Origin: an archaeon | GTDB taxonomy: Archaea > Nanobdellota > Nanobdellia > Woesearchaeales > GW2011-AR9 | Length of the DNA stretch: 48,195 nt | Reading direction: 5' to 3' | Assembly (NCBI GenBank): GCA_023259115.1 | Contig: JAHFQW010000012.1 | Location: forward strand, 1-48,195 | Shown: piece after piece, positions 1,206 through 45,528 of the stretch | Numbering within the stretch: position 1 is the first letter of the stretch | Layout: every line of letters begins with the position of its first letter | Position numbers and translations under genes: made by a program | The notes under the pieces: model-generated | What the model saw: the letters and a program-made list of their open reading frames with translations, nothing else | Told to the model about the DNA's origin: nothing | Database searches by the model: none

Positions 1206-1799
1206 ATGCTCCTCTCCTCTCTTCTTCAAACAGTTGGCTCACAACAAAAAGCCCAAGAAATCTTACTCATTCTCCACAACCAAAAACCACTCCTCCGTCA
1301 AGGCTATTACGAATCGGAACTACCACCCATTCAAGCATTCTGCTCTCAGCACTCTCTCCATCTCGTCAAATCAACATTCAAAGTCCTCTTAGACGACCCA
1401 AATCACTTCACCAACAAAGGCATCAGAATCCCATCCACTGACCCTCGTTCTGGCATGTATTTCATCTACATCGCCAAAGACGAAAAAACCGCCTATCTCG
1501 CCTCCTATCACGAACTCACAAATAACCATCATGACCTAGGATTACTCTTAGGGTATCCTCCTTGTTGTATTGATTTTTTTAGTAATCATTTTAATGAACA
1601 ACACACAAATCTCGAACACCCCCCCGCCAATCCCTGGACCAATCTCACCTTGCGCGAAAAAGACATCTGCCTGCTCTCCCACTTTCCTTGTTCATCTGAT
1701 TGTGAGCAGAGTATTCTTCTCGCACAGAAATATTATGCCACTCTAGAACAAGTTGATCCGACATACGCCAAAGAAATCATCACTCATTTAAACATCTAA
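1206..1799 (+). CDS. DUF483 family protein
   Basis: The 197-residue protein carries the hallmark LGYPPCCIDFF near residue 115 and a later HFPCSSDCEQSILLA segment near 160. This Cys-Cys plus CSSxC arrangement is what I know from the archaeal DUF483 family. The cysteines could bind a metal or an Fe-S cluster, but no activity has been shown for the family as far as I know. The length is normal for a complete member. The 3' end overlaps the convergent end of the 946-residue gene by 12 bases. The start at 1206 follows an A/T-rich stretch without a clear ribosome binding site. Confidence 0.75.
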   Translation: MLLSSLLQTVGSQQKAQEILLILHNQKPLLRQGYYESELPPIQAFCSQHSLHLVKSTFKVLLDDPNHFTNKGIRIPSTDPRSGMYFIYIAKDEKTAYLASYHELTNNHHDLGLLLGYPPCCIDFFSNHFNEQHTNLEHPPANPWTNLTLREKDICLLSHFPCSSDCEQSILLAQKYYATLEQVDPTYAKEIITHLNI

Positions 1800-4628
1800 T
1801 CCCTTCTCTCGCAACTCCTCTAGAGTCCCCGCTCGTTTAAAAATATGTTGAATATTTTCTTTATCATATCCCAACGTAAGTAAATCAAACATCGCTCGTT
1901 GAGCTACTGCAATAATTGACTCGCCAGTTCTCGCCTCAGCATCCACTTCTTCAATAACTCGCCTAACCATCTCTTGATACCGCGCCATTTCACTCGTCAT
2001 TTCTTTTTGTGGAACATCAATTCCCACCAGCTCATCTTCATGAAAATGCGCATACCCTCCCCGGACATAATATTCTCTTTTAATACTCCAATCTACACTC
2101 CAAGAAATATCTTTTTTGTCTTGATATCGTACCACATACGAATTCTTATCTATTATCTCAACCAATGTCACCTCTGACCCCAGAGGAATATTTCGTATGC
2201 GGTCATTGAAATAATCTGTTGAATAATCACTTTTAATATTTTCCCGCACTCTCAACTTCATCCCTTTCACCAGTTGAGGCTCAGCAAATAATCGTTCCAC
2301 CGCAACCATATCTGCCGCATTCGCATGAATAGTTCCAATCGGTTTATTTCTCAAAAGAGAGACATGATAACTACCCCTGTTACACAATTCATCTACCTTC
2401 ACAATAGTTCCGGGGGTATATCTTTCTACCTCTTGCGTAAGCATCGCCACGATTCCCCCCTCAATTTTCCTATCTACAACCTTATACGCTTTTCTGATAC
2501 TATTTTCAATATCTCTTATCCACTCCTCATATTTCTTCTTAGAATTAACACCCAAAGCATCCAACACAATTCCTTCTCTCTCTTTCACTCGCTTTGCAAT
2601 GATATTTACTCTGCTCTGATAATCTTTTCTAATCCTACAAATCGTTAACTTCTCAACAATATCTTCACCCAAATACGTTACATCTCTCAGAACATCTTCA
2701 TGATGCTCTCTCACCACATACGAAATAACTTCCTCCATCACTCCCGCATTTCGTAATTGCGTAACAAACGTTTGCACCACTGCTCGTTCTTGTTCCTCTC
2801 TTACTCTGCCAATCATCTCCGCTTCTCGTACAACTTCCTCAATACCTAGCGTTAATTGGTGTATTCTTCTCCGTCTCTCTTGTTCTAATGCTTTTCCTCT
2901 CATCACTCTAAATGTATCAGGTCTTTTCACAAACTCTAATTCATCAGGCCCATACTCTTTCACCATAGTCTTAGAAAAACGCACCAGATAAGGTCGTTCA
3001 TCTGATTTAATATGTTCAATCACCACTCCTTCTCCTCCTCTCACTAACTTTGAAAACCTACTCCCCTTCTTCAATCTCACTTTACTTCCCACATCATATA
3101 CCAATTCACCTCTCTCCATTGCCTCTGCTAATGGATCAAACACTTTTTCTTCCTTGCTCATCTGAAATACTCCCTCTACATACTGTTTTTCAATTTCCCA
3201 TGTTACAGGTAATTGTTTATCATAATTCCCAGATAAATAATGAAATTCAATATGCCAATATGTTCCAATATCATTTCGCACATATCCCCAACTACCCTCT
3301 GTACTGTAATTATAATGAGACCCATCGATAATCTCTACTTTATCACCCACTTTGATCTCTCTACTCTTATTTATCCCTGGAATAAGTGTCGGTCGTATCA
3401 ATTTCATCTCTAAATCATCCAAGCGTTCCAGAATAGAATACATTTTTCCTTTCTCCATAAAATTTAATTTTTTTCCTTCTAATCTACCTCTACTTCCCAG
3501 AGGCAATCTCTCTAGTGTAACCCCGCATTTATACTCTCGTCCTTCTTTCCCCAACGCCTGAATCGTGATAACCTCATCACCTAACTTAAACTCTCTAAGT
3601 ATATTCACGGCCTCCCAGCCATTCAACACTCGTTCTAATAAACTACTTGTAAATGTGTCATACTCTTTTTGCGAATCCATTCTTGTAGGAAGATCTATAA
3701 TAATCCCTCTCTTTTCTCTCAATTTCTTGCCAATTTCTCTCACCTGCTTCATATAAACATCTGTATTCGTTCCCAATTCTTCTAATACTTTTTTAAAATT
3801 CTGCCGTTGCTCTGCACGTAACTCTCTGGCAGTCATATAGTGCAACACTTCTAATGTCACTCTATCCTCTGGCGTATCTTTCTCAACTAGTAAACTATAA
3901 AGCATCACTTCGTCTGCTCCTCTATCTTTCCTCTTTTTATAATCAAACACTCTCTGTTGCGTCTCTCTATCCTTATTTGTCTCTATAACTGTTGTAAGAG
4001 CGAGTAATTCTTGTATCTCTTCTTTAGTTTGCAGAGTTGGGATATATCTACTTGCAATCTTCAACTCATCTGCAATTAATCCCGCCACCATCAACTCCTC
4101 AGGTTCAAAAGTCAAAAAATGCAAGAACGATTCTTGATACAATAACCCTCCTACTTCTTGCTTCTCTTTGGTCATATCAAATTTTTTTTTGGATTGTGGT
4201 AAGACATCGTTCAAGAATCTCACCTCTTGCCTAAAAAATGTTCTTGCTTTCTCAACCATTTCTTCTAATCCCTCTTCAGAGTCAAAAGCATAGGGATACT
4301 GCAATCTCTTAAACACATTTTTCAAGATAAAATATTTAATAGTAAATGAATCTTCTAGAAATTCTTGTGCATCAATTTTCTCTCTCTCTGTTACCAGAGA
4401 ATAACTCCACAATAATTTCATAAGATCTTCCCCAGGAAAATCACTCCAATCAATATTTACTCCTGTATGGATAATTGACGCAATATGTTTTATCGCATCA
4501 TAGGGTGGTTTGACAATCTCTATCTCTTCTGTCTTTCGTTCTTCTTCTTCCGCTGTATCTAATAATGCTAATAAATCTATTTCTGATTCTAAGTCCAATT
4601 TATCTTTTTCATCATGTGCCATATTCAA
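1788..4628 (-). CDS. Large protein with SH3-like repeats, last gene of the ubiquitin-like operon
   Basis: I do not recognise this 946-residue protein as a whole. It is mostly charged and helical, with several short beta-rich modules that look like SH3/Mib-Herc2-type barrels: about residues 348-415, 426-485 (VGDKVEII ... EGSWGYVRND ... WHIEF), 512-568 and 755-855 (a second block with MKLRVREN ... VVRYQ). Helical segments around 590-640 and 875-925 resemble each other (IEEV ... EAE/EAR ... L ... G), so the protein may be two rounds of helix bundle plus barrels. No transmembrane segment or catalytic motif is visible. Position suggests a role as scaffold, substrate adaptor or E3-like factor for the E1/E2/JAMM genes upstream; this is inference. 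Hairpin element B1 separates it from the E1 gene. Met1 and Met3 are both possible starts. Confidence 0.7.
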   Translation of the reverse strand: MNMAHDEKDKLDLESEIDLLALLDTAEEEERKTEEIEIVKPPYDAIKHIASIIHTGVNIDWSDFPGEDLMKLLWSYSLVTEREKIDAQEFLEDSFTIKYFILKNVFKRLQYPYAFDSEEGLEEMVEKARTFFRQEVRFLNDVLPQSKKKFDMTKEKQEVGGLLYQESFLHFLTFEPEELMVAGLIADELKIASRYIPTLQTKEEIQELLALTTVIETNKDRETQQRVFDYKKRKDRGADEVMLYSLLVEKDTPEDRVTLEVLHYMTARELRAEQRQNFKKVLEELGTNTDVYMKQVREIGKKLREKRGIIIDLPTRMDSQKEYDTFTSSLLERVLNGWEAVNILREFKLGDEVITIQALGKEGREYKCGVTLERLPLGSRGRLEGKKLNFMEKGKMYSILERLDDLEMKLIRPTLIPGINKSREIKVGDKVEIIDGSHYNYSTEGSWGYVRNDIGTYWHIEFHYLSGNYDKQLPVTWEIEKQYVEGVFQMSKEEKVFDPLAEAMERGELVYDVGSKVRLKKGSRFSKLVRGGEGVVIEHIKSDERPYLVRFSKTMVKEYGPDELEFVKRPDTFRVMRGKALEQERRRRIHQLTLGIEEVVREAEMIGRVREEQERAVVQTFVTQLRNAGVMEEVISYVVREHHEDVLRDVTYLGEDIVEKLTICRIRKDYQSRVNIIAKRVKEREGIVLDALGVNSKKKYEEWIRDIENSIRKAYKVVDRKIEGGIVAMLTQEVERYTPGTIVKVDELCNRGSYHVSLLRNKPIGTIHANAADMVAVERLFAEPQLVKGMKLRVRENIKSDYSTDYFNDRIRNIPLGSEVTLVEIIDKNSYVVRYQDKKDISWSVDWSIKREYYVRGGYAHFHEDELVGIDVPQKEMTSEMARYQEMVRRVIEEVDAEARTGESIIAVAQRAMFDLLTLGYDKENIQHIFKRAGTLEELREKGLDV

Positions 4629-4633
4629 TATAT

Positions 4634-4813
4634 TATAGAGGAATTTGAATAAACCCTCTATTCATCAATATAATAGACCGCAGTTTATTTACAAGAAATA
4701 CGAAAACTATCGTATTTCTGTACAGAAAATAAATCGTTTATTTTCTTGTATTAGATAACTGTGTCAAATATTATATATTCTACACCGTTATCTATATTCA
4801 AAGTCATCCTATA
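4634..4813. repeat. Hairpin element B1 with covarying core
   Basis: Outer ends are TATAGAGGAATTTGAATA on the left and the inverted TATTCAAAGTCATCCTATA on the right. Inside are a TACAAG junction, a hairpin GAAATACGA/TCGTATTTC with loop aaacta, a CTGTACA junction, a hairpin GAAAATAAA/TTTATTTTC with loop tcg, and a CTTGTA junction that can pair with TACAAG. The right end supplies the TAG stop codon of the E1 gene. It lies between the last two genes of the operon, so it may end or process the transcript. Confidence 0.75.
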
Positions 4814-6491
4814 TCTCTAAATTCGGTATTCTCTCCTTATGTACATAACAATCACACACCGATCGCAGTGCTGTAAACCCTAATCGCGAATCCAAATCAG
4901 TCGCATATTTAATCGAGCCATTCAATGGGAGGCCGTATCGCTGCCCATCAAAAAGTGTTCCTAGTTCCAATGCCGCAAGCGCCGCTCCAACTTGATTGGT
5001 CATAATAACCGAAGGATCTGGCTGTGCAATACAACTCTGTCTTCGAATAATCTCCTCTTGCCTGCCTCTCTCATAATAATCACTAAATACATGATTCATA
5101 CACGAACTCTTTCCTGGCACATACACTGCCACTTGCGCCGCATCTGGTGAAGACGCCGCACTAATCAACGCAATATCCCTCTCTGTTGCATACGCACTAA
5201 TCAATGCCCGCGCATATAAATTATCCACTAAATCAAAAATCGCATCATACTTTCCTCTTCCGTAAGTATCAATTGAATATGTTCCCTCTTTTCGTTCAAA
5301 TCTCTCAACCAATGCTCTCGTCTTAGCACTAGGATCCATTCTGTGATGTTTTTGTGCAAGCACTCCTGCTTTCTCTTTTCCCACCGCATCATAAAATAAC
5401 ACTTGGCGGTTCAAATTATGACTCTCAATCGTATCATAATCCAAATAATCAACCTCACCGATCCCCATTGTGCTCAACGCTAGTGTCATAATATTCCCTA
5501 ACGCTCCCGCACCAATTACCAGCACTCTCTTATCAGCATATAATTCTCTCTCCTCTTTTTTCTCACTCGGTATATTTTGTGGTACTATCATCTCCCCCAG
5601 ACGTCGAAAAGAAAATCTCTCTCCCTCTACGCCTCGCTTGTAATATAACGCGCGAGGAAATTCCATTCTTGTTGCATCAGTTAAAATAATCTTTTTGACT
5701 TCTTCCGAAATAACTCCCCCCCACAGCAAAGCTAAGAGCGGATGTTGTTCAAAACCAGAAAAATGGGTCATCAAATGATCTACCTCCATTTTCTCTCCTT
5801 GCCATATCATCATCTTTGCATAATTATTGGAAATTCCTGTTGTAATAAAAGGAATTCTTTCAGATCCATATCTATTCTTGGCAAATTCTAACGCCAGCAT
5901 CTTTGATTTAGGATTATTTGTCGTATCAATTATCACCGAACTCTTCTGCAGAAAATCTTGCGCTAATCTTGTTTCTAAATCTACCGGAATACCAATCACT
6001 CTTGTATTTGGGTTAAGCATTTTAAAGCCTCTTTCATACGCCAGAACTCTCTCTTTCCCTGTAAAGCGCATATCCAATACTCGATCTTCTGTTTTCATCT
6101 TACCCGTTCCAATAATGCGCACTTCTCCAACCCCTAATGCCACCAAGGGCAGCGCCGCATAATATGCGCCATAATCTGCCCCAATAATTGTAACAACGGC
6201 GTTCTCTAATTTTATTTGTCCTTCTTCACCCCAAATTTTCTTTTGGCGGTCATAGCGTACCAACTCATTCATTCCCTCAAGCTCAGTATGTTCTACTTCT
6301 GCATGCCCCCTCTCTCCATCTACATGCTCCATCTCTACAAGATCTATCCCTGCATGCTCTACCTCATCTAGCACCGTTGCTGTCTCTTGTTCTTCTACTA
6401 ATTCCCCTATTTTTTCTTTTCTGGGAGGAGGCATAGGTAAACCTATTTTCAAACCTGCATTTTCCAATTCTCCGATTTCTATATCTCCCAT
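4809..6491 (-). CDS. E1-like activating enzyme with two tandem ThiF domains
   Basis: The protein probably adenylates a ubiquitin-like modifier. The first domain (about 79-275) opens with the E1 motif VRYDRQ.IWGEEGQ, but its nucleotide loop is degenerate (GADYGA, 104-109). The second (about 320-515) looks active: GAGALG 327-332, acidic residues D350/D352, HNLNRQ 358-363, GKEK 371-374, and D423-N424 before R428. Candidate catalytic cysteine C487 lies in SCIAQ, followed by PDPSVIMTNQ. C464, C546 and C548 (CDC) could bind zinc. An inactive domain followed by an active one in a single chain is the layout of eukaryotic E1 enzymes; MoeB/ThiF proteins are normally single-domain homodimers. The first 78 residues form an acidic, Pro-containing tail. 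The gene follows the JAMM gene after 129 bases and has only a weak ribosome binding site. Confidence 0.85.
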   Translation of the reverse strand: MGDIEIGELENAGLKIGLPMPPPRKEKIGELVEEQETATVLDEVEHAGIDLVEMEHVDGERGHAEVEHTELEGMNELVRYDRQKKIWGEEGQIKLENAVVTIIGADYGAYYAALPLVALGVGEVRIIGTGKMKTEDRVLDMRFTGKERVLAYERGFKMLNPNTRVIGIPVDLETRLAQDFLQKSSVIIDTTNNPKSKMLALEFAKNRYGSERIPFITTGISNNYAKMMIWQGEKMEVDHLMTHFSGFEQHPLLALLWGGVISEEVKKIILTDATRMEFPRALYYKRGVEGERFSFRRLGEMIVPQNIPSEKKEERELYADKRVLVIGAGALGNIMTLALSTMGIGEVDYLDYDTIESHNLNRQVLFYDAVGKEKAGVLAQKHHRMDPSAKTRALVERFERKEGTYSIDTYGRGKYDAIFDLVDNLYARALISAYATERDIALISAASSPDAAQVAVYVPGKSSCMNHVFSDYYERGRQEEIIRRQSCIAQPDPSVIMTNQVGAALAALELGTLFDGQRYGLPLNGSIKYATDLDSRLGFTALRSVCDCYVHKERIPNLEI

Positions 6492-6620: not shown

Positions 6621-8192
6621 TCAGAATTTCGTTCTATCTCTGTGAACCTCATCATATAACTCTGGAATAAATTTTTCCATAGCCTCATTCTGATCATGTG
6701 CTAAAAAATTCCACAGAAAAGATACTTGTATATCCTCTTTATTTCCCTCCAGTGTCTTTCTAATATTCTCTCTCGCTTTTCCCAATATATAATCTTCATT
6801 TCTATCAACTAACGTTGGCACTTCCACCTCTTCTCCATCCGATTCCAGAGGACCTATTTGGTATATTGCTTGTCGTAAACTAATTCCCTGCTGCGATCTC
6901 CCTAATACTCCCAGTAAATCATTCATATATCCTGAGTAAAATACCTCTTGTGAACGATATCTGCTCACATACCCTGCCGCCGCATACACAAAAAGATTTA
7001 CTAATTCTTCTGGTCGTAGACTCGGTTGTTCTTTTTTCACAAATTTATTTGTATGTGACATGAAATAGGAACTATTCGATTTTTGATATTTTTCATATCC
7101 ATCTAACAACGATTGTGAACTAGCCATTTCCCTTCCTGCTTGAAATCCTAACCCATTTGATATGCCCACATCCTCATCTAAATCCCTTTGAAACCATCTC
7201 TTATTTCTCTTGCCATTCCCACTTGGAAATTTCGCCACATATTTGGGTGGAAAAACAATCCTCTCTCGCACTAATTCTTGCATTGCCTGTGTTGTAAACT
7301 CAACATCATCTTCTACATCAACAACTTCCAGTGATATAGTCTGTCGTATAATCGTTTTCTTGCCAATCCCCGTAATGCCTTTCTCCTCTACAATCCCTAT
7401 CTCTGCATAAGGCGTATCTTTTTTTTCATTTACCACAATACTATAGCCAAACCCTCTGATCAGTGGCTCATACGTTTTAAGATCGCACAACTCCACAACT
7501 TCTCGCCACAATCTCTGCACCTCCTCTTCGCTTGCTCTCTTCTTACCAAAACTAAACCCATTTTTTTTCCCAAAGCCATATTGTTCTAATAATTGTTCTA
7601 ATCTTTCTGGATTAGGAATGGTATATTCTAAATACCCATCCACCGTATCTTGACCTGTAATCCTAATCTTTCCCTCTTTCAGCTCCCAGCTAGGTGCACT
7701 CTCCACAATATTAAGAGGTATTCTCTCTCGTTGTTGTGTATTAAGATAGAGGGTATTCAATAACTGCTCAAAATTCTCATTATCTGTTTGAGAATGATTT
7801 GGTTGAAAGTCCGCATGACTATGCAGCCAGCCAATAATATAATAATCTCTGTCTAACTCCTCATTTAATTTTACAACTTCCAAATTTGCTCTTGCATGAT
7901 TCTCACCTGACACTGCCACATAGGCATGACCTGCGTGTGTACCTTTTACCAGCAGTAAATCTCGTACCACATAGCATGGATCATTTTTTTGCGCCAACAG
8001 AAACGAAAACCACTCATTTGCTTTGCCATCAATTGTATGCACCGCTCTACATATCTCATACGCTTTCTCTAACGTATTTCTGGTAATTGGCAATGTTGAA
8101 GGAATAAATACTCTTTCTTGTATTAATTTCTCTTCCCGTTTCATATCCCCTTGTAATAATGCTAATAATTCCTCATCATCTTCGTTCGTCAT
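6621..8192 (-). CDS. JAMM/MPN metalloprotease, predicted deconjugase and precursor protease
   Basis: Residues about 35-195 form a JAB/MPN domain. The zinc motif is complete: E60 in ANEWFSFLL, then H124-x-H126-x7-S134-xx-D137 in WLHSHADFQPNHSQTD. Such enzymes cleave after the C-terminal Gly-Gly of ubiquitin-like proteins, either to mature a precursor or to release it from a target. The remaining about 300 residues are charged and have no motif I recognise; the protein is much longer than a bare MPN domain and so has a specific partner-binding part. Its ATG overlaps the TGA of the E2-like gene (ATGA at 8189-8192), so the two are translationally coupled. The neighbouring small protein has a Gly-Gly followed by six residues, a natural substrate candidate. 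Confidence 0.88.
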   Translation of the reverse strand: MTNEDDEELLALLQGDMKREEKLIQERVFIPSTLPITRNTLEKAYEICRAVHTIDGKANEWFSFLLAQKNDPCYVVRDLLLVKGTHAGHAYVAVSGENHARANLEVVKLNEELDRDYYIIGWLHSHADFQPNHSQTDNENFEQLLNTLYLNTQQRERIPLNIVESAPSWELKEGKIRITGQDTVDGYLEYTIPNPERLEQLLEQYGFGKKNGFSFGKKRASEEEVQRLWREVVELCDLKTYEPLIRGFGYSIVVNEKKDTPYAEIGIVEEKGITGIGKKTIIRQTISLEVVDVEDDVEFTTQAMQELVRERIVFPPKYVAKFPSGNGKRNKRWFQRDLDEDVGISNGLGFQAGREMASSQSLLDGYEKYQKSNSSYFMSHTNKFVKKEQPSLRPEELVNLFVYAAAGYVSRYRSQEVFYSGYMNDLLGVLGRSQQGISLRQAIYQIGPLESDGEEVEVPTLVDRNEDYILGKARENIRKTLEGNKEDIQVSFLWNFLAHDQNEAMEKFIPELYDEVHRDRTKF

Positions 8193-9595
8193 TGCTTTTC
8201 CCCCTGTATCTCTTCTCCCCTCTCCTTACCATCTAAAATCCACTCATTCGTAATTCTATACCCTGCCTCAACTGCCTGTTCACGTGTCAATGTTCCCACT
8301 GTGGTATACGTTTCTTTGAGCGATCGTCCAAAATACATTGCATTCTCATCTCGTGAACCATGTTCATCTAAACTCTTTAAAGTCAACCCGTTGGTAAACG
8401 CATTAATCGCGCTAGATATATGGCGTACAATTCCCTGCGCTGTATTCTCGAAATTTCCCCCACTTAAAATACAAATATGTTCATACCTATTCTTCCAATC
8501 ACGCAGAAAAGGATGCGCCATTTCATCAACAACATATGCTCCTTCATGGTAAACACGTCCATCACTGGCATTTACCCGTACACTCACTCTTGTCGCAGGA
8601 AAAGGATGATATCGTTGTGGTTCTAGTGGATTTTGCATTGCAAATTTGGGCATTTCCCAATAAACATAGAACAATTCACCCTCTCGAATATATCCTAAAT
8701 TTCCATACTCAAAATTCTTTGTATCTGCCAATCTTTCCAACGCTCCTCTTCGTTTCTTCTCATTCGCCGGAATCATCACTCGCTCATCTGTCTCTACATT
8801 CCACTGTGCTAATGCGCTCTGTTTTAACGTATTCAGAAGTAACTGATCATACTTCTCTCCTAAATCACTCGCAGAACAATTATATTCTAATCCATACATT
8901 ATATTTTCAATTGATATGCGTATTTCTCCTTCTTTCTCCTCCTCGTCTATATCCCGTAATCCAAATATCTCTCCTCCCATAACACAAATTGATCCTTGCA
9001 CCAAACGATCCCACAATGTCTTCTCTCCCTGCTCTTTTATAATTCCCTCCGCTCTAATATACGGCTCTTCTCGTATCTCTTGTGTTATACGTTCTAACAC
9101 TTTCTGTCGTAATCGCTCTTTTTCTTGAAATACATTAATCTCCTCAACATCTTCCCCCTCTTTGGAATTTAACTGCAAAACATCCTCAATCACTTCTCTT
9201 CCTGATTTTTTTACCTCTAAATCAACATGAAGTAATTCTCCTAAATCATACGCTGTATCAATCATCAACGGTAACACTTCTAACAATACAAATTCCTGCA
9301 ATCGTAAAATATCTTTTCTACTATCTTTTTGCCTCTCTGATAGAATCTCCGCCTGTAATGCTTCTTGCACATAGTTTTGTGTAAACGTAAACATTTTCCC
9401 TTGATACAACCGTTCTTCTAAATCCTCCATTGCCGCAACCGACATAAACTGGTTCAAATCATATCTTCTTTCTCCCACTTCAACTCTGTTTGACTTCCTA
9501 GAATCATGTTCACTAATGGTATAAATAACCCCTGAATCAATCACAAAAGAAGATAAATTTGCTAAACGTTCAAAAAAATTCGTATGATTTTTCAT
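8189..9595 (-). CDS. E2-like conjugating protein with long N-terminal extension
   Basis: The C-terminal part (about 295-405) follows the E2 (UBC) pattern: strands GYIREGELFYVYWEM, then YHPFPATRVSVRV (compare the E2 YPF.PP.V.F), then HPFLRDWKNRYEHICIL, which matches the E2 HPN...G.ICL core. This makes C375 the predicted catalytic cysteine and H361 the HPN-type histidine. The asparagine of HPN is replaced by Phe, as in several divergent prokaryotic E2 families. A helix rich in Ala and Ile follows. The first about 290 residues are helical and charged and unknown to me. The gene lies between the ubiquitin-like and JAMM genes and overlaps the latter by 4 bases. A GAGGAAT site precedes ATG. The E2 reading is by pattern and needs a structure model. 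Confidence 0.7.
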   Translation of the reverse strand: MKNHTNFFERLANLSSFVIDSGVIYTISEHDSRKSNRVEVGERRYDLNQFMSVAAMEDLEERLYQGKMFTFTQNYVQEALQAEILSERQKDSRKDILRLQEFVLLEVLPLMIDTAYDLGELLHVDLEVKKSGREVIEDVLQLNSKEGEDVEEINVFQEKERLRQKVLERITQEIREEPYIRAEGIIKEQGEKTLWDRLVQGSICVMGGEIFGLRDIDEEEKEGEIRISIENIMYGLEYNCSASDLGEKYDQLLLNTLKQSALAQWNVETDERVMIPANEKKRRGALERLADTKNFEYGNLGYIREGELFYVYWEMPKFAMQNPLEPQRYHPFPATRVSVRVNASDGRVYHEGAYVVDEMAHPFLRDWKNRYEHICILSGGNFENTAQGIVRHISSAINAFTNGLTLKSLDEHGSRDENAMYFGRSLKETYTTVGTLTREQAVEAGYRITNEWILDGKERGEEIQGEKQ

Positions 9596-9743: not shown

Positions 9744-10163
9744 CTACTTAAAGTAGTATTCTGCTCCACCCGTTTGTTTGGATGCCACAATCAGATCAAG
9801 ACCCATATAGGTATTCCCTTTCATAGTTTTCTCAGTAAAATATAATAGAGATTTATCTTTACCCAGACGTGCTTCACCATTCACCGTAAGTCCATATCCC
9901 CTCTTCATTTCTCCTTTAATTGTTGCCGCAATTTGTTCTGCTTTGCGCGCTTTTGTCGCTGGACCAAGACCATATTGAATAATCTCATCTAACGATCCTT
10001 GTAAGAATTCTGCTGGCACGTCATATCGTAATGCCCCTTCCGCCGCACTTCCTGGTTTCATTGCCACAATATATCTTAATCCCTCTCGAATCGCAGGCAC
10101 TACTACTTCTGGAAGCACTGCTGCTTTTTCTGCAGGTATTGCCGTTTTATTTTTTTTTGCCAT
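9744..10163 (-). CDS. Candidate ubiquitin-like modifier precursor
   Basis: This 139-residue protein is the first gene of the operon. After a basic, Ala-rich N-terminus (1-25), the order of predicted elements matches a beta-grasp fold: strand (LRYIVAMKPG), strand (ALRYDVP), helix (about 57-86), strand (GYGLTVNGEARL), then strand (YMGLDLIVASK). It then ends TGG-AEYYFK. The Gly132-Gly133 pair lies directly after the last strand, as in ubiquitin, and would become the C-terminus if the last six residues were removed, a job that fits the JAMM enzyme two genes downstream. A TAAGGAGTGA ribosome binding site lies at about 10171-10180. The fold is inferred from pattern; identity to known modifiers is very low. 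Confidence 0.65.
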   Translation of the reverse strand: MAKKNKTAIPAEKAAVLPEVVVPAIREGLRYIVAMKPGSAAEGALRYDVPAEFLQGSLDEIIQYGLGPATKARKAEQIAATIKGEMKRGYGLTVNGEARLGKDKSLLYFTEKTMKGNTYMGLDLIVASKQTGGAEYYFK

Positions 10164-10285: not shown

Positions 10286-10619
10286 GTTAATATGAAACCC
10301 TCGCCAAAGGGCCAGCGAACTAGTCTGGTGTCTCGTCAGACAACACCCGGTGCTCCATTCAAATTTATAGTAAATGTGTGAAATAATCAAATATTAATTT
10401 ACACATTTACTTACAAGAAATGTGAAAGCTATCACATTTCTGTACACACAAAATAGGAAAACTATCCTATTTGTGCACAGAAAAAATCGCTGTTTTGTCT
10501 TGTGGAAAATGAGTCATTACTCATTTTCTTGTATTAGTAATGGTGAACTCCCATTCGAAAATTATTCACCATTACTATACATTGATTGGAGCAAGTGAGG
10601 GGGAGGGTTTCATATTAGC
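10286..10619. mobile_element. MITE-like element D1 with terminal inverted repeats and flanking direct repeat
   Basis: The ends are inverted: TAATATGAAACCCTC (10288-10302) and GAGGGTTTCATATTA (10603-10617). An identical 11-base direct repeat, CCTTCCAAAAT, flanks it at 10275-10285 and 10620-10630, as expected for a target-site duplication. No transposase gene is inside. The second inverted pair GCTCCA/TGGAGC closes on a nested A-type hairpin element at 10366-10579. The sequence fills most of the gap between the ubiquitin-like operon and the FAD gene. Confidence 0.75.
10366..10579. repeat. Hairpin element A1 (short form), nested in D1
   Basis: It starts TATAGTAAATGTGTG and ends CATTACTATA. In order it holds hairpins GTAAATGTG/CACATTTAC, GAAATGTGA/TCACATTTC, CACAAAATAGGA/TCCTATTTGTG, ACAAAA-type/TTTTGT and GAAAATGAGT/ACTCATTTTC, with TACAAG and CTTGTA junctions. 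The last outer hairpin GTAATGGTGAA/TTCACCATTAC is short: about 110 bases present in copies A2 and A4 are missing. One stem base differs from the other copies. Confidence 0.8.
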
Positions 10620-11945: not shown

Positions 11946-11979
11946 TGATAGATGAAATTTATGATAAATTTAATTATGA

Positions 11980-12303
11980 TATAGTAAATGTGTGAAATAA
12001 TCGAATATTAAACCACACATTTACTTACAAGAAATGTGAAAGCTATCACATTTCTGTACACACAAAATAGGAAAACTATCCTATTTGTGCACAGACAAAA
12101 TCGCTGTTTTGTCTTGTGGAAAATGAGTCATTACTCATTTTCTTGTATTAGTAATGGTGAACAAAGCTTTGCTTCAGCAAAGTGTTGCATCAGCAACATT
12201 ACTTGCTGATAAGCAAGTCACAAACGTCAGTGACTTGAGGAACGCTAGTGACTTTATCATGAACGGAGTGACTCGAATTCGAAAATTATTCACCATTACT
12301 ATA
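11980..12303. repeat. Hairpin element A2 (full length)
   Basis: This 324-base copy is nearly identical to A4 (40661-40985). It has the same chain of five hairpins as A1. Its outer right hairpin GTAATGGTGAA/TTCACCATTAC then encloses a further set: CTTTGC/GCAAAG, TGTTGC/GCAACA, ACTTGC/GCAAGT and AAGTCAC/GTGACTT. It lies between the FAD gene and the MoxR gene and ends 25 bases before the MoxR start. Confidence 0.85.
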
Positions 12304-12328: not shown

Positions 12329-13207
12329 ATGACTTATACACCATTTAATGGAACTAAAAAATACCAACCAGATGCCCGATTAACAACCATGGTAAATATC
12401 GCCATCGCTCGTGAGCGTCCCCTTCTTATTACCGGTGAAGCAGGAACGGGTAAAACTCAACTCGCCTATGCCATTTCTGAATTTCTAGGATTACCTCTAT
12501 ATAGAGCACAAATGACATCAACCATGGAAGGAGAAGAAATATGTTATACATTTGATTCCGTTCTGCGTTTAACTGATTCACAACTTGTCAGCCATGGCAG
12601 CAGTATCGATGGACGTGTCATTTCTAATCCTTTATGTTATGTAAGATATGGTGCTATGGGCAAAGCATTTTGTGATGAGAAACGCAGTGTAGTTTTAATA
12701 GATGAAATAGATAAAACAGAGAGTACGGTTCAAGATGATTTACTGCGAGTATTAGAATCGTATGAATTTGAGGTTCGTGAAGCCAACACCGTAATCAAAG
12801 CTCATCAGAAACCTATCATTGTAATTACCAGCAACGGTAAGAGAGAATTATCTGATGCTTTTCTGCGAAGATGTTATGCCCATCACATCGATTTTCCCGC
12901 AAAAGAACAACTACACAAAATTGTGCAAATACATTATCCCCAAACCAATCCTCTCATTCAACAACATGCCATAAATATTCTCTACGAATTCCGTTCAATT
13001 GGTTTGGAAAAATCACCTGCAACCTCTGAAATATTAGATTGGATTGGTGCACTCAACGATTTAAACATCATTCCTCCCAGAACAATTCACAATAAAGAAG
13101 AAATCCCCTTAATCGGCCTTCTCTTAAAACGAGGGATGGATTTAGAGAGGGTAACAGAAGGAAACTTCCAAACCCGCCGGAATCGTGATGAGAGGGTAGG
13201 AGTGTAA
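12329..13207 (+). CDS. MoxR-type AAA+ ATPase
   Basis: The 292-residue protein has Walker A GEAGTGKT (36-43), Walker B VVLIDEIDK (121-129), sensor 1 TSN (167-169) and DAFLRRC (176-182) with the arginine finger. These fit the MoxR family of AAA+ chaperones, which act with a von Willebrand factor A partner to insert cofactors or remodel protein complexes. The VWA partner is the next gene, 74 bases downstream. A good ribosome binding site (GGAGG) precedes the ATG. The natural client is unknown; the two FAD enzymes that flank the pair are candidates by position only. Confidence 0.9.
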   Translation: MTYTPFNGTKKYQPDARLTTMVNIAIARERPLLITGEAGTGKTQLAYAISEFLGLPLYRAQMTSTMEGEEICYTFDSVLRLTDSQLVSHGSSIDGRVISNPLCYVRYGAMGKAFCDEKRSVVLIDEIDKTESTVQDDLLRVLESYEFEVREANTVIKAHQKPIIVITSNGKRELSDAFLRRCYAHHIDFPAKEQLHKIVQIHYPQTNPLIQQHAINILYEFRSIGLEKSPATSEILDWIGALNDLNIIPPRTIHNKEEIPLIGLLLKRGMDLERVTEGNFQTRRNRDERVGV

Positions 13208-13225
13208 AATAAAGAATATAGAATA

Positions 13226-13270
13226 AGAAATATAACTTCAGAAATATAAAATTAGAAATATAACTTCAGA
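13226..13270 (+). repeat. Two direct repeats of AGAAATATAACTTCAGA
   Basis: Identical 17-base copies occupy 13226-13242 and 13254-13270 with a 28-base period in the leader of the VWA gene. They may be a regulator site or a slippage product. Confidence 0.6.
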
Positions 13271-13281
13271 TAAGAGATACA

Positions 13282-14709
13282 ATGTACACTTCATTCACCT
13301 ATGCCCTCAGAAAAGAAGAAATATCCGCAACCCCTGCTCATCTTCTTGATTTAATGGAAGGTATAGAGCAAGGACTTGCACCAACTCTGGGCGATCTCTT
13401 TCTTCTTGCCAGAGCCACTTATGTTAAAAAACATCGACAAGAAAAAGCTTTCCAGCGCGCTTTCTTTTCCTATTTTCTCAATATCCCTACTGCTAAAAGT
13501 ATTCCTCTAGAACAGTCCATTGAGCAATCAACACAATTTCAACAATGGGTTCAACAAGCAGAAATACCAGAACATGAACCTAAAGTAAAATATTTTATTA
13601 TGGTTCTCTTTGGTGATCAGCCAATTTCTCTAAAATCATCCCTCCTAAAATCATCAATCCCCAGACCAAATATACCTAATTCCCATTTATCCGATCTAGA
13701 TTCTATTCTAGATGAATTTAAAAAAAGAATGATGCAGGAAAAAATACAACCCCATTTTGATAAAAATTATCAACCGGCAATAAAGCCAAAATCAATTTTG
13801 GAGAGTAACCTCAATGACACGGGGGGATATACCGTCGCAGAAGATCACAAAGCCGAATTGATCGATTACGGTGATATTTCTAATAAAGAATTAGAAGAGA
13901 GATTACGTAAAACACTCCAAGCGCAGCAAGAGAAACATGAAGGAGGTAACCAGTGGATTGGTCAAAAAGGTAATAGTCCATTTGGTCATAATGGCTTTAG
14001 TAGATATGGCATTCGTATTGGTGGCAGCAGTCAAAACCGTGCTGCACGCCATGTAATTGACACTGCAGGAACAAGTTATGGTACAGGTAGAAAAATAAAA
14101 GGCTACGAAGATGGTACTATCCAAGAAACGTTACAGCAACTCAAATTAGTCCGTGTCGTAGAAAATAGTTCATCAACAGTTCTCAATCTTCGAAAAACCA
14201 TCCGCCAGGCAGGAAAAAAAGGCTATGTTCAACTACACTACGAACATCAAAAGAAAGATCAAATGCACGTGATCACCTTCATTGATAGTGGTGGCCGTTC
14301 CATGAATCGCCATGTTGCAAAAGTAGAAGAACTCCTTGCCAAAATGCGTTCAGAATTGAAATCACTTGATACTTATTATTTTCATAATTGTATCTATGAA
14401 CACGTTTTTTCAAATCCTCTACAGCAACACCCTCTCTCATTAGAAACCATCACTTCTCAACCTAAAGAAACTAGAATAATCATTATTGGTGATGCTTCTA
14501 TGGATGAATCTCGAGAAATTAATCTCAATACCCTTGGAAGAGTACAAAAAGCATTTCCTTACACCGCATGGCTCAATCCTGTACCACAAGAGTTATGGGA
14601 TGAAACAGCCAGTATTAAACAGATCAAGACTATATTTGAAATGTTCCCTCTCACGCCTCCCGGATTATCTAAAATGGTAGATTATCTAACACGTGAAATA
14701 AAAAAATAA
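13282..14709 (+). CDS. Von Willebrand factor A domain protein, MoxR partner
   Basis: The C-terminal half (about 325-475) has the order of a VWA domain. The metal site reads FIDSGGRSMNRH (D335, S336, S340), a modified form of the DxSxS MIDAS motif, and a later strand IIIIGDASMDES carries the last acidic residues. The N-terminal half is helical with a Gln/Glu-rich middle. A basic, Gly/Ser-rich segment (about 215-255) looks flexible. This is the CoxE/YehP-like partner commonly encoded beside MoxR ATPases. The extra bases in the MIDAS motif (one residue longer than usual) may weaken metal binding. Confidence 0.75.
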   Translation: MYTSFTYALRKEEISATPAHLLDLMEGIEQGLAPTLGDLFLLARATYVKKHRQEKAFQRAFFSYFLNIPTAKSIPLEQSIEQSTQFQQWVQQAEIPEHEPKVKYFIMVLFGDQPISLKSSLLKSSIPRPNIPNSHLSDLDSILDEFKKRMMQEKIQPHFDKNYQPAIKPKSILESNLNDTGGYTVAEDHKAELIDYGDISNKELEERLRKTLQAQQEKHEGGNQWIGQKGNSPFGHNGFSRYGIRIGGSSQNRAARHVIDTAGTSYGTGRKIKGYEDGTIQETLQQLKLVRVVENSSSTVLNLRKTIRQAGKKGYVQLHYEHQKKDQMHVITFIDSGGRSMNRHVAKVEELLAKMRSELKSLDTYYFHNCIYEHVFSNPLQQHPLSLETITSQPKETRIIIIGDASMDESREINLNTLGRVQKAFPYTAWLNPVPQELWDETASIKQIKTIFEMFPLTPPGLSKMVDYLTREIKK

Positions 14710-19179: not shown

Positions 19180-19393
19180 TATAGTAAATTGCAGTAATTA
19201 AGTTACATCAAATTAGGCAATTTACTTACAAGAAATGCAAAAACTATCGCATTTCTGTACACACAAAATAGGAAAACTATCCTATTTGTGCACAGACAAA
19301 ATCGCTGTTTTGTCTTGTGGAAAATAAATCGTTATTATTTATTTTCTTGTATTAGATAATTGCGTGTAATGTAACAATAATAACGCAATTATC
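19180..19393. repeat. Hairpin element A3
   Basis: The core is that of A1/A2/A4, but the outer hairpins differ: GTAAATTGC/GCAATTTAC on the left and GATAATTGCGT/ACGCAATTATC on the right, and the first core stem is GAAATGC. The stems differ from other copies in a paired way. A short direct repeat ATCAATA overlaps both ends. It lies between convergent genes and its right end contains the stop codon of the 160-residue gene. Confidence 0.8.
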
Positions 19394-40660: not shown

Positions 40661-40985
40661 TATAGTAAATGTGTGAAATAATCGAATATTACTCTACACA
40701 TTTACTTACAAGAAATGTGAAAGCTATCACATTTCTGTACACACAAAATAGGAAAACTATCCTATTTGTGCACAGACAAAATCGCTGTTTTGTCTTGTGG
40801 AAAATGAGTAATTACTCCTTTTCTTGTATTAGTAATGGTGAACAAAGCTTTGCTTCAGCAAAGTGTTGCATCAGCAACATTACTTGCTGATAAGCAAGTC
40901 ACGAACGTCAGTGACTTGAGGAACGCTAGTGACTTTATCACGAACCGCAGTGACTCGAATTCGAAAATTATTCGCCATTACTATA
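40661..40985. repeat. Hairpin element A4 (full length)
   Basis: The 325-base sequence matches A2 at 11980-12303 almost base for base, including the inner chain CTTTGC/GCAAAG, TTGC/GCAA and AAGTCAC/GTGACTT. It lies upstream of the Lhr start and contains a frame without good coding signs. Confidence 0.85.
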
Positions 40986-45275: not shown

Positions 45276-45528
45276 TATAGAGGACTTTGAATAACCCTAT
45301 TTTCATCAATTATTCAAAGTATACCAAAGGCACTAATTAATTCCAAAAATAGCTAGTGCCTTTGTATATACAAGAAAATAAGAAACAACTTATTTTCTGT
45401 ACAGAGAACAAATCGTTGTTTGTTTTCTTGTACAACAAACATAACTATTTTAATTTAAAATTAGGTTCGTTGGTATACTTCTTAGAGGGGTTTGATTAAC
45501 CATCTAAAATTCTTCAAACCCCTCTATA
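45276..45528. repeat. Hairpin element B4 with inner C-type and A-type modules
   Basis: The ends are TATAGAGGACTTTGAATAACC and CAAACCCCTCTATA. Within are, in order, the hairpin of C elements (AAAGGCACTAA/TAGTGCCTTT), a TACAAG junction, hairpin GAAAATAAG/CTTATTTTC, a CTGTACA junction, hairpin GAACAAA/TTTGTTTTC, and CTTGTA. So one element combines modules of three families. The right end overlaps the last codons of the 84-residue gene. Confidence 0.8.

Follow-up and report, generated by a model that had tools for sequence, protein, structure and literature searches.

A five-gene operon on the minus strand of a woesearchaeal contig probably encodes a self-contained system by which DPANN archaea conjugate a ubiquitin-like modifier. 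The window (the whole stretch of DNA analysed, 48,195 nucleotides) corresponds to an entire contig of a 1.57-Mb genome. Read 5' to 3', the genes code for a ubiquitin-like modifier precursor (139 aa), an E2 candidate (468 aa), a JAMM metalloprotease (523 aa), an E1 that joins an inactive and an active adenylation domain in one chain, and a protein of 946 aa. Apparently, this is an undescribed DPANN branch of the ubiquitin-like systems, since no published account of such a system was found in the open-access literature, as distinct from subscription papers and bioRxiv preprints. If this assignment is right, a complete ubiquitin-like cascade exists in a large archaeal group outside Asgard, and its E2 family and its modifier are ones that the standard profiles miss. 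None of the Pfam, PADLOC and NCBIfam scans puts a name to the modifier, the E2 candidate or the 946-aa protein, profile searches of the PDB started from the alignments of these three proteins gave no convincing match, and neither a RING nor any other known E3 turned up among the genes searched.

The two-domain E1

The E1 gene occupies positions 4809..6491 (560 aa, ATG start), as given in the initial annotation, to which the strand can now be added: it is the minus strand, as for all the coordinates of operon features given below, and the plus-strand frame over the same interval is full of stops. Both halves of the protein match PF00899 (ThiF) above the curated cut-off, the first with 45.4 bits (E 3.7e-12) and the second with 116.1 bits (E 9.1e-34), which places each of them in the ThiF/E1 superfamily and bears out the proposal of two ThiF domains in a single chain.

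The first domain, delimited by the profile match and the alignment (residues 76–310; 5562..6266), keeps the motif R79-Y-D-R82-Q..WG..GQ92. Its RYDRQ portion (residues 79–83; 6243..6257) contains R82, which is predicted to serve the other half as an arginine finger. The nucleotide loop, which starts at G104, is degenerate both here (GADYGA, residues 104–109; 6165..6182) and throughout the family, so the initial reading of this domain holds beyond the single protein. Among 29 aligned full-length relatives, this half retains R82 together with a few glycines and structural residues, and the family alignment contains no conserved nucleotide-site residue in it comparable to N-x-x-R-Q.

The second domain (residues 317–550; 4842..5543) holds the nucleotide loop GAGALG (residues 327–332; 5496..5513), D351 and D353, the NLNRQ motif (residues 359–363; 5403..5417), K374, D423 and C487, as well as a Cys/His set formed by C464, H467, C546 and C548. 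Both motifs are evident in the sequence and in the alignment of the relatives, where G327, G329, D351, D353, N359, R362, Q363, K374 and D423 are invariant (29 sequences). The predicted catalytic cysteine, C487 (codon at 5031..5033), lies in a short crossover loop and is found in 34 of 35 relatives; R82 is present in 31 of the same 35 and also in the bacterial relatives, and both residues exceed 90% conservation in the 29-sequence alignment. The complete site and the candidate cysteine that had been noticed in this domain are thus family-wide features. Neither the sequence nor the relatives' alignment shows an RYxRQ entry motif belonging to this second half.

The same inactive/active asymmetry is observed in relatives from Pacearchaeota and Nanoarchaeota and from Acetothermia, Chloroflexi and Desulfobacterota bins, and because it recurs in around 30 relatives, it can be regarded as a selected trait of the family. 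In MoeB and UBA1, an arginine from one half completes the nucleotide site of the other. By this logic, the E1 would keep one half as a helper and the other as a catalyst. At the level of the sequence, the arginine motif in one half and the nucleotide site in the other correspond to the arrangement of a pseudo-dimeric E1, which supports the prediction of a single-chain enzyme with one inactive and one active adenylation domain working with the pseudo-dimer logic of UBA1. The protein bears no domain-sized Cys insert, as only 22 residues separate C464 and C487, and none is found family-wide. Nor does it contain a UFD: the chain stops 12 residues past C548, leaving no room for one, and the relatives are similar in length.

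E1 chemistry is likely for this protein, as predicted from its context, because its neighbors are a modifier with a Gly-Gly and a tail, an E2 candidate and a JAMM protease. Alternatively, the E1 and the modifier could form a sulfur-transfer pair of the ThiF/MoeB type, with the other genes being incidental. The best NCBIfam matches to the E1 are indeed ThiF and MoeB, and the crossover loop, the Cys/His set and the lack of a Cys domain resemble these enzymes. However, all the NCBIfam matches fall far under their curated cut-offs, JAMM and E2-like genes accompany the E1 in most loci, and Iyer et al. (PMC1779556) report no JAB in thiamine or molybdopterin operons, all of which makes sulfur transfer highly improbable in comparison with protein conjugation.

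The modifier, the E2 candidate and the JAMM protease

The first gene of the operon (9744..10163) codes for the putative modifier, recognized through its AlphaFold2 model, Foldseek and VIA comparisons and its place in the operon. The protein has no significant sequence match to known families and, in profile–profile comparison, no match to the ubiquitin-like proteins of Chloroflexi. In its AlphaFold2 model (pLDDT 87), a predicted beta-grasp fold is followed by a short flexible end with the C-terminal Gly, the combination that characterizes a ubiquitin-like modifier. The top Foldseek matches are structures of Caldiarchaeum ubiquitin (6fno/6fj7), with a probability of 1.00 and an E-value of only ~5e-3. 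VIA aligns residues 28–133, ending precisely on the second Gly, with Caldiarchaeum ubiquitin, SAMP1, SUMO, ISG15 and MoaD at Z 6–7, values that are middling in themselves, so that the weight is carried by the consistency of the list and by the GG end.

The C-terminus of the precursor consists of SKQTGG followed by AEYYFK. According to the C-terminal ends of the relatives, the di-glycine (residues 132–133; 9765..9770) is the predicted end of the mature modifier, and the JAMM protease is predicted to cut off the six-residue tail (9747..9764), by analogy with Rpn11 from Caldiarchaeum (PMC5654768). With few exceptions, the relatives end in GG, PG, GA, AG or SG and then a short tail, which varies in length and sequence, with retention of the Gly pair, and they occupy the same operon place in most loci. 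A different set of operons from Anaerolineae/Chloroflexi (L144, L145, L146, L152 and L165), holding a single-domain E1, a UQ_con E2 and a JAB-like gene, encodes a conserved ubiquitin-like protein of 88–89 aa (with a YukD match) that ends in TAG.

The E2 candidate (8189..9595) comprises an N-terminal beta/coiled-coil part and a C-terminal UBC-like domain (approximately residues 277–435). It matches no Pfam family, and Foldseek returns nothing under an E-value of 0.001, with E-values over 0.2. On the other hand, almost the entire list of the 50 best VIA matches to its AlphaFold2 model (pLDDT 83) consists of E2 enzymes, at Z-scores of 4.2–5.7, all below 6. In 34 relatives, the only invariant column is C375 (codon at 8471..8473), the predicted catalytic cysteine, present in 34 of 34, with H361 and P362 conserved in more than 90%. 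Such an arrangement, with (I/L)C around a dozen residues past an HP, corresponds to that of E2 enzymes, with the catalytic Cys after the HP motif, although the Asn of the HPN motif is not conserved. A profile–profile comparison with archaeal-type E2s that match UQ_con is not significant, and its single aligned block is exactly the HPx..C region. On the basis of the modelled fold and the motif, the 468-aa protein is likely an E2 (UBC) enzyme.

The first 4 nt of the JAMM/JAB metalloprotease gene (6621..8192) coincide with the end of the E2 gene. The match of the protease to Prok-JAB (E 9.7e-5) is just under the Pfam cut-off, and the metal-binding pattern H-x-H-x(n)-S-x-x-D is found in 39 of 42 relatives, including the protein of the window, where it reads HSHADFQPNHSQTD (residues 124–137; 7782..7823). 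Rpn11 from Caldiarchaeum trims a nine-residue tail from pro-ubiquitin and also acts in deconjugation (PMC5654768); by analogy, both trimming and deconjugation are proposed for this protease.

Downstream of the E1, the fifth gene (1788..4628) encodes the 946-aa protein, which exhibits coiled-coil and beta-barrel-like segments and has relatives located directly after the E1 gene in 11 loci. It belongs to no significant family and gives only weak beta-barrel matches. UBA or Mind-bomb-like SH3 domains were considered but are not claimed for it, the only hit being SH3_15 at an E-value of 0.086 in one member. An adaptor or E3-like role can be guessed for this protein.

Taken in order, the proposed pathway would begin with the JAMM protease, which would trim the six-residue tail off the modifier precursor to expose the Gly-Gly. 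The active half of the E1 would then bind the modifier and ATP, with Arg82 of the inactive half, a residue observed in the sequence, expected to complete the site, so that a single E1 chain would act as a pseudo-dimer with one active center. From Cys487 of the E1, the modifier would be handed to the E2-like protein of 468 aa, at Cys375, and finally to an amine of the substrate. The JAMM protease would also strip the modifier from substrates, and the 946-aa protein may, as a guess, contribute to the recognition of the substrate or the modifier. Less certainly, the tag may feed the proteasome via an Mpa/ARC-type ATPase in at least some members.

Distribution and genetic neighborhood

The order modifier-E2-JAMM-E1 recurs in dozens of loci from Woesearchaeota, Pacearchaeota and Nanoarchaeota, as well as in some bacterial bins. 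Over 41 loci, genes that lie next to each other on the same strand number 26 pairs for modifier and E2, 29 for E2 and JAMM, 29 for JAMM and E1, and 11 for E1 and the 946-aa protein. Relatives of the E1 were found in 44 of the 287 genomes searched from the same order (E 1e-15). The profile of the 468-aa protein is positive in 41 of the 371 genomes of the phylum and negative in most of the listed genomes of the same family, so the distribution is patchy. Contigs from Acetothermia, Desulfobacterota and Chloroflexi bins (L105, L110–L113, L115, L116 and L118) also carry related operons, several of whose modifiers end in PQEGG plus a tail, or at GG. Their presence in bacterial bins reflects either transfer between domains or mis-binning.

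This patchy spread, with few positive genomes in the same family, and the occurrence of relatives in unrelated bacterial bins would also be expected if the operon served in antiphage defense like the bacterial Bil system, tagging viral parts rather than proteins of the cell, a role that is compatible with conjugation. The operon holds the same four functions as BilABCD (PMC11354881), and PADLOC gives weak E1-E2 matches to the active half of the E1. Nevertheless, defense genes are not prominent among the neighbors examined, the E1 without a Cys domain and the single-domain modifier are unlike their Bil counterparts, and the proteasome ATPases found in related operons point elsewhere. Defense is consequently regarded as a possible, though rather unlikely, destination of the conjugation proposed here.

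Several other features accompany these operons. In one subgroup, genes for eukaryotic-type Ser/Thr protein kinases are found a few genes downstream of the E1 (L076:6432-8129, L108:11707-13425 and relatives). In the window, a MoxR-type AAA ATPase gene and, after it, a gene with a weak likeness to VWA/CoxE (12329-14709) are divergent from the operon. The window also contains an intergenic repeat of 135 nt with hairpin-like arms, in four copies 88–99% identical (10405-10539, 12019-12153, 19220-19354 and 40700-40834), a 286-nt form of which is found at 11979 and 40660 (98% identical), together with diverged copies at 4686-4747 and 45365-45426. One copy is located just upstream of the operon, and a diverged one lies between the E1 gene and that of the 946-aa protein.

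A possible link to the proteasome

In four related genomes, the modifier gene is adjoined on the same strand by a gene for a TIGR03689-type ATPase of around 500 aa (L071:13605-15089, L074:10156-11649, L083:14288-15769 and L104:2705-4249), at distances of 5, 13 or 10 nt, or with a 4-nt overlap. The best NCBIfam match of these proteins is TIGR03689, the proteasome ATPase of the Pup system, over nearly the full length and with 377–419 bits, which is below the equivalog cut-off of 504.75. Because an Mpa/ARC-type ATPase gene abuts the modifier gene in these four loci, proteasomal degradation may reasonably be proposed as an outcome of the tagging.

Such ATPases are rare, being found at an E-value of 1e-65 in only 4 of the 371 genomes of the phylum: in two within the ubiquitin-like operon, in one on another contig, and in one (L206) beside Pup-ligase genes. 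The latter locus (L206:7232-11601), from a DPANN genome of the same class, appears to be a Pup locus, with an Mpa/ARC-type ATPase, genes of the Pup-ligase family (one of which is divided between two ORFs) and a protein of 62 aa that, like Pup, ends in TGGQ. No Pup ligase is matched among the operon genes of the window, L206 being the only place where a Pup locus was seen. The genome of the window has two proteasome (PF00227) genes; an Mpa/ARC-type ATPase was found neither beside its operon nor elsewhere in it. The C-terminal end of Mpa is GQYL, and the four linked ATPases are devoid of this end. In addition, ClpX/ClpB-like AAA genes are located near the E1 in L107 and L112.

The broader proposal that DPANN archaea possess their own ubiquitin-proteasome pathway, with an independently invented E1, a new E2 family and an Mpa/ARC-type ATPase that delivers the tag to the 20S proteasome, can therefore be advanced only tentatively. 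If it were true, ubiquitin-like tagging and pupylation would share one unfoldase family, and nature would supply an example in which a folded ubiquitin-like tag is tied to a Pup-type proteasome ATPase, which would open the origin of tag-driven proteolysis to testing.

Origin of the inactive-active layout

The layout of this E1 is the same as that of the eukaryotic ubiquitin activator, but it was probably reached separately. The two halves align mutually over 207 columns in a profile–profile comparison (probability 99.8, 16% identity), and from this extent the protein can be interpreted as the product of an internal duplication that took in the ThiF domain in its entirety. A recent local duplication, which the initial annotation had named as an observation that would speak against its reading, is rejected, because the first and second halves group apart from each other throughout the family, with a mutual identity of only ~16%.

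The initial annotation left open whether the fusion was independent or a relative of the eukaryotic ancestor, and proposed trees of each half. In the trees obtained with IQ-TREE, every inactive half sampled falls in a single clade (100/96), and the halves from eukaryotes join the single-domain E1s (96/88), under a thin sampling of eukaryotic rows that comprised two UBA1-type E1s, UBA7 and SAE2 as segments, with BilD left out. When the long rows are removed, both halves of the E1 family fall together on the same side of a weakly supported branch (68/70). The best trees thus locate the duplication inside the E1 family.

The contrary scenario, in which a single inactive-active duplication preceded the split of this family from UBA1 and made the E1 a true relative of the eukaryotic enzymes, draws on the profile of the full E1 family, which matches UBA1 in both halves and in the right order (E 3e-40). 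The active half is also nearest to SAE2 (124 bits), UBA1 (112) and UBA3 (109) among solved structures, by a small margin over MoeB (104), and single-group AU tests of its union with the eukaryotic halves give p-values of 0.34 and 0.22 under a mixture model and so do not reject it. However, when the shared duplication is imposed jointly, the constraint costs 14.5 lnL units (p-AU 0.042, LG+F+G4), and the free trees put the eukaryotic halves with the single-domain E1s. The inactive half, moreover, scores higher with ThiF/MoeB (90 bits) than with the eukaryotic inactive halves (NAE1, 62; SAE1, 58; UBA1-type chains, around 40–52 per stretch), and the hosts are DPANN rather than Asgard archaea, the Helarchaeota E1 of the same set being single-domain. 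A duplication shared with UBA1 is thus disfavored by these comparisons and quite improbable, and the evidence lends no support to a kinship of the E1 with the eukaryotic ancestor.

Most likely, the inactive-active fusion arose inside the family by duplication of a MoeB/ThiF-like domain, in parallel to UBA1 and BilD. The description of this layout as eukaryotic is correct insofar as the UBA1-like fusion is real, but the layout is no mark of eukaryotes, because the bacterial BilD also has it (PMC11354881). If the separate origin is true, the inactive-active architecture of E1 arose at least twice and is a solution that evolution can repeat, not a signature of eukaryotes, which would make it unusable by itself for tracing the origin of eukaryotes.

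Comparison with known systems

A close counterpart in gene content is the bacterial BilABCD system, composed of a Ubl, an E2, a JAB and an E1, where BilD holds an inactive and then an active adenylation domain in one chain (PMC11354881). The same four-gene set is present here, with the E2 recognized by fold and motif only. Nevertheless, BilD contains a helical Cys domain of 80 aa and BilA two Ubl domains (PMC11354881), whereas in the E1 described here a short loop bears the cysteine, and a single ubiquitin-like domain makes up the fold of the modifier. Likewise, the CEHH (Cys-Glu-His-His) motif of BilB is not conserved in the E2 candidate, where H361 and P362 are found upstream of C375.

Mobile and patchy E1/E2/JAB gene sets are also represented by Cap2 of CBASS and by the bacterial operons of types 6a–6e (Iyer et al. 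2006, PMC1779556). The E1 of these systems is typically fused to an E2 or JAB, and a modifier-E2-JAMM-E1 layout with a two-domain E1 is not among the operons described in the passages considered; in profile searches, only the active half of the E1 from the DPANN operon resembles them.

The operons from Caldiarchaeum and Asgard archaea share with this one an archaeal modifier precursor, an E1, an E2 and a JAMM protease, and the modifier model matches Caldiarchaeum ubiquitin best. However, the Helarchaeota E1 consists of one ThiF domain and is accompanied by an E2 that Pfam recognizes as UQ_con, unlike the E2 candidate described here, which matches no Pfam family, and no RING protein was found here among the genes searched.

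MoeB, ThiF and UBA5 hold, like this E1, their Cys on a short crossover loop and no separate Cys domain. Enzymes of this type are homodimers of an active domain, whereas here one copy of the domain is dead and fused to the other. With UBA1, NAE1-UBA3 and SAE1-SAE2, the E1 shares the arginine of the inactive half, the whole nucleotide site of the active half and, as predicted, one active center per pseudo-dimer. Contrary to the eukaryotic UBA1, it has neither FCCH/SCCH Cys domains nor a UFD, and in the best trees its halves are separate from those of the eukaryotic enzymes.

Finally, the likeness to the Pup-proteasome system resides in the four relatives where the modifier gene abuts a TIGR03689 (Mpa/ARC) ATPase gene. 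Unlike in that system, the operons encode no Pup or Pup ligase, and the tag is, by prediction, a folded ubiquitin-like protein served by an E1 and a candidate E2.
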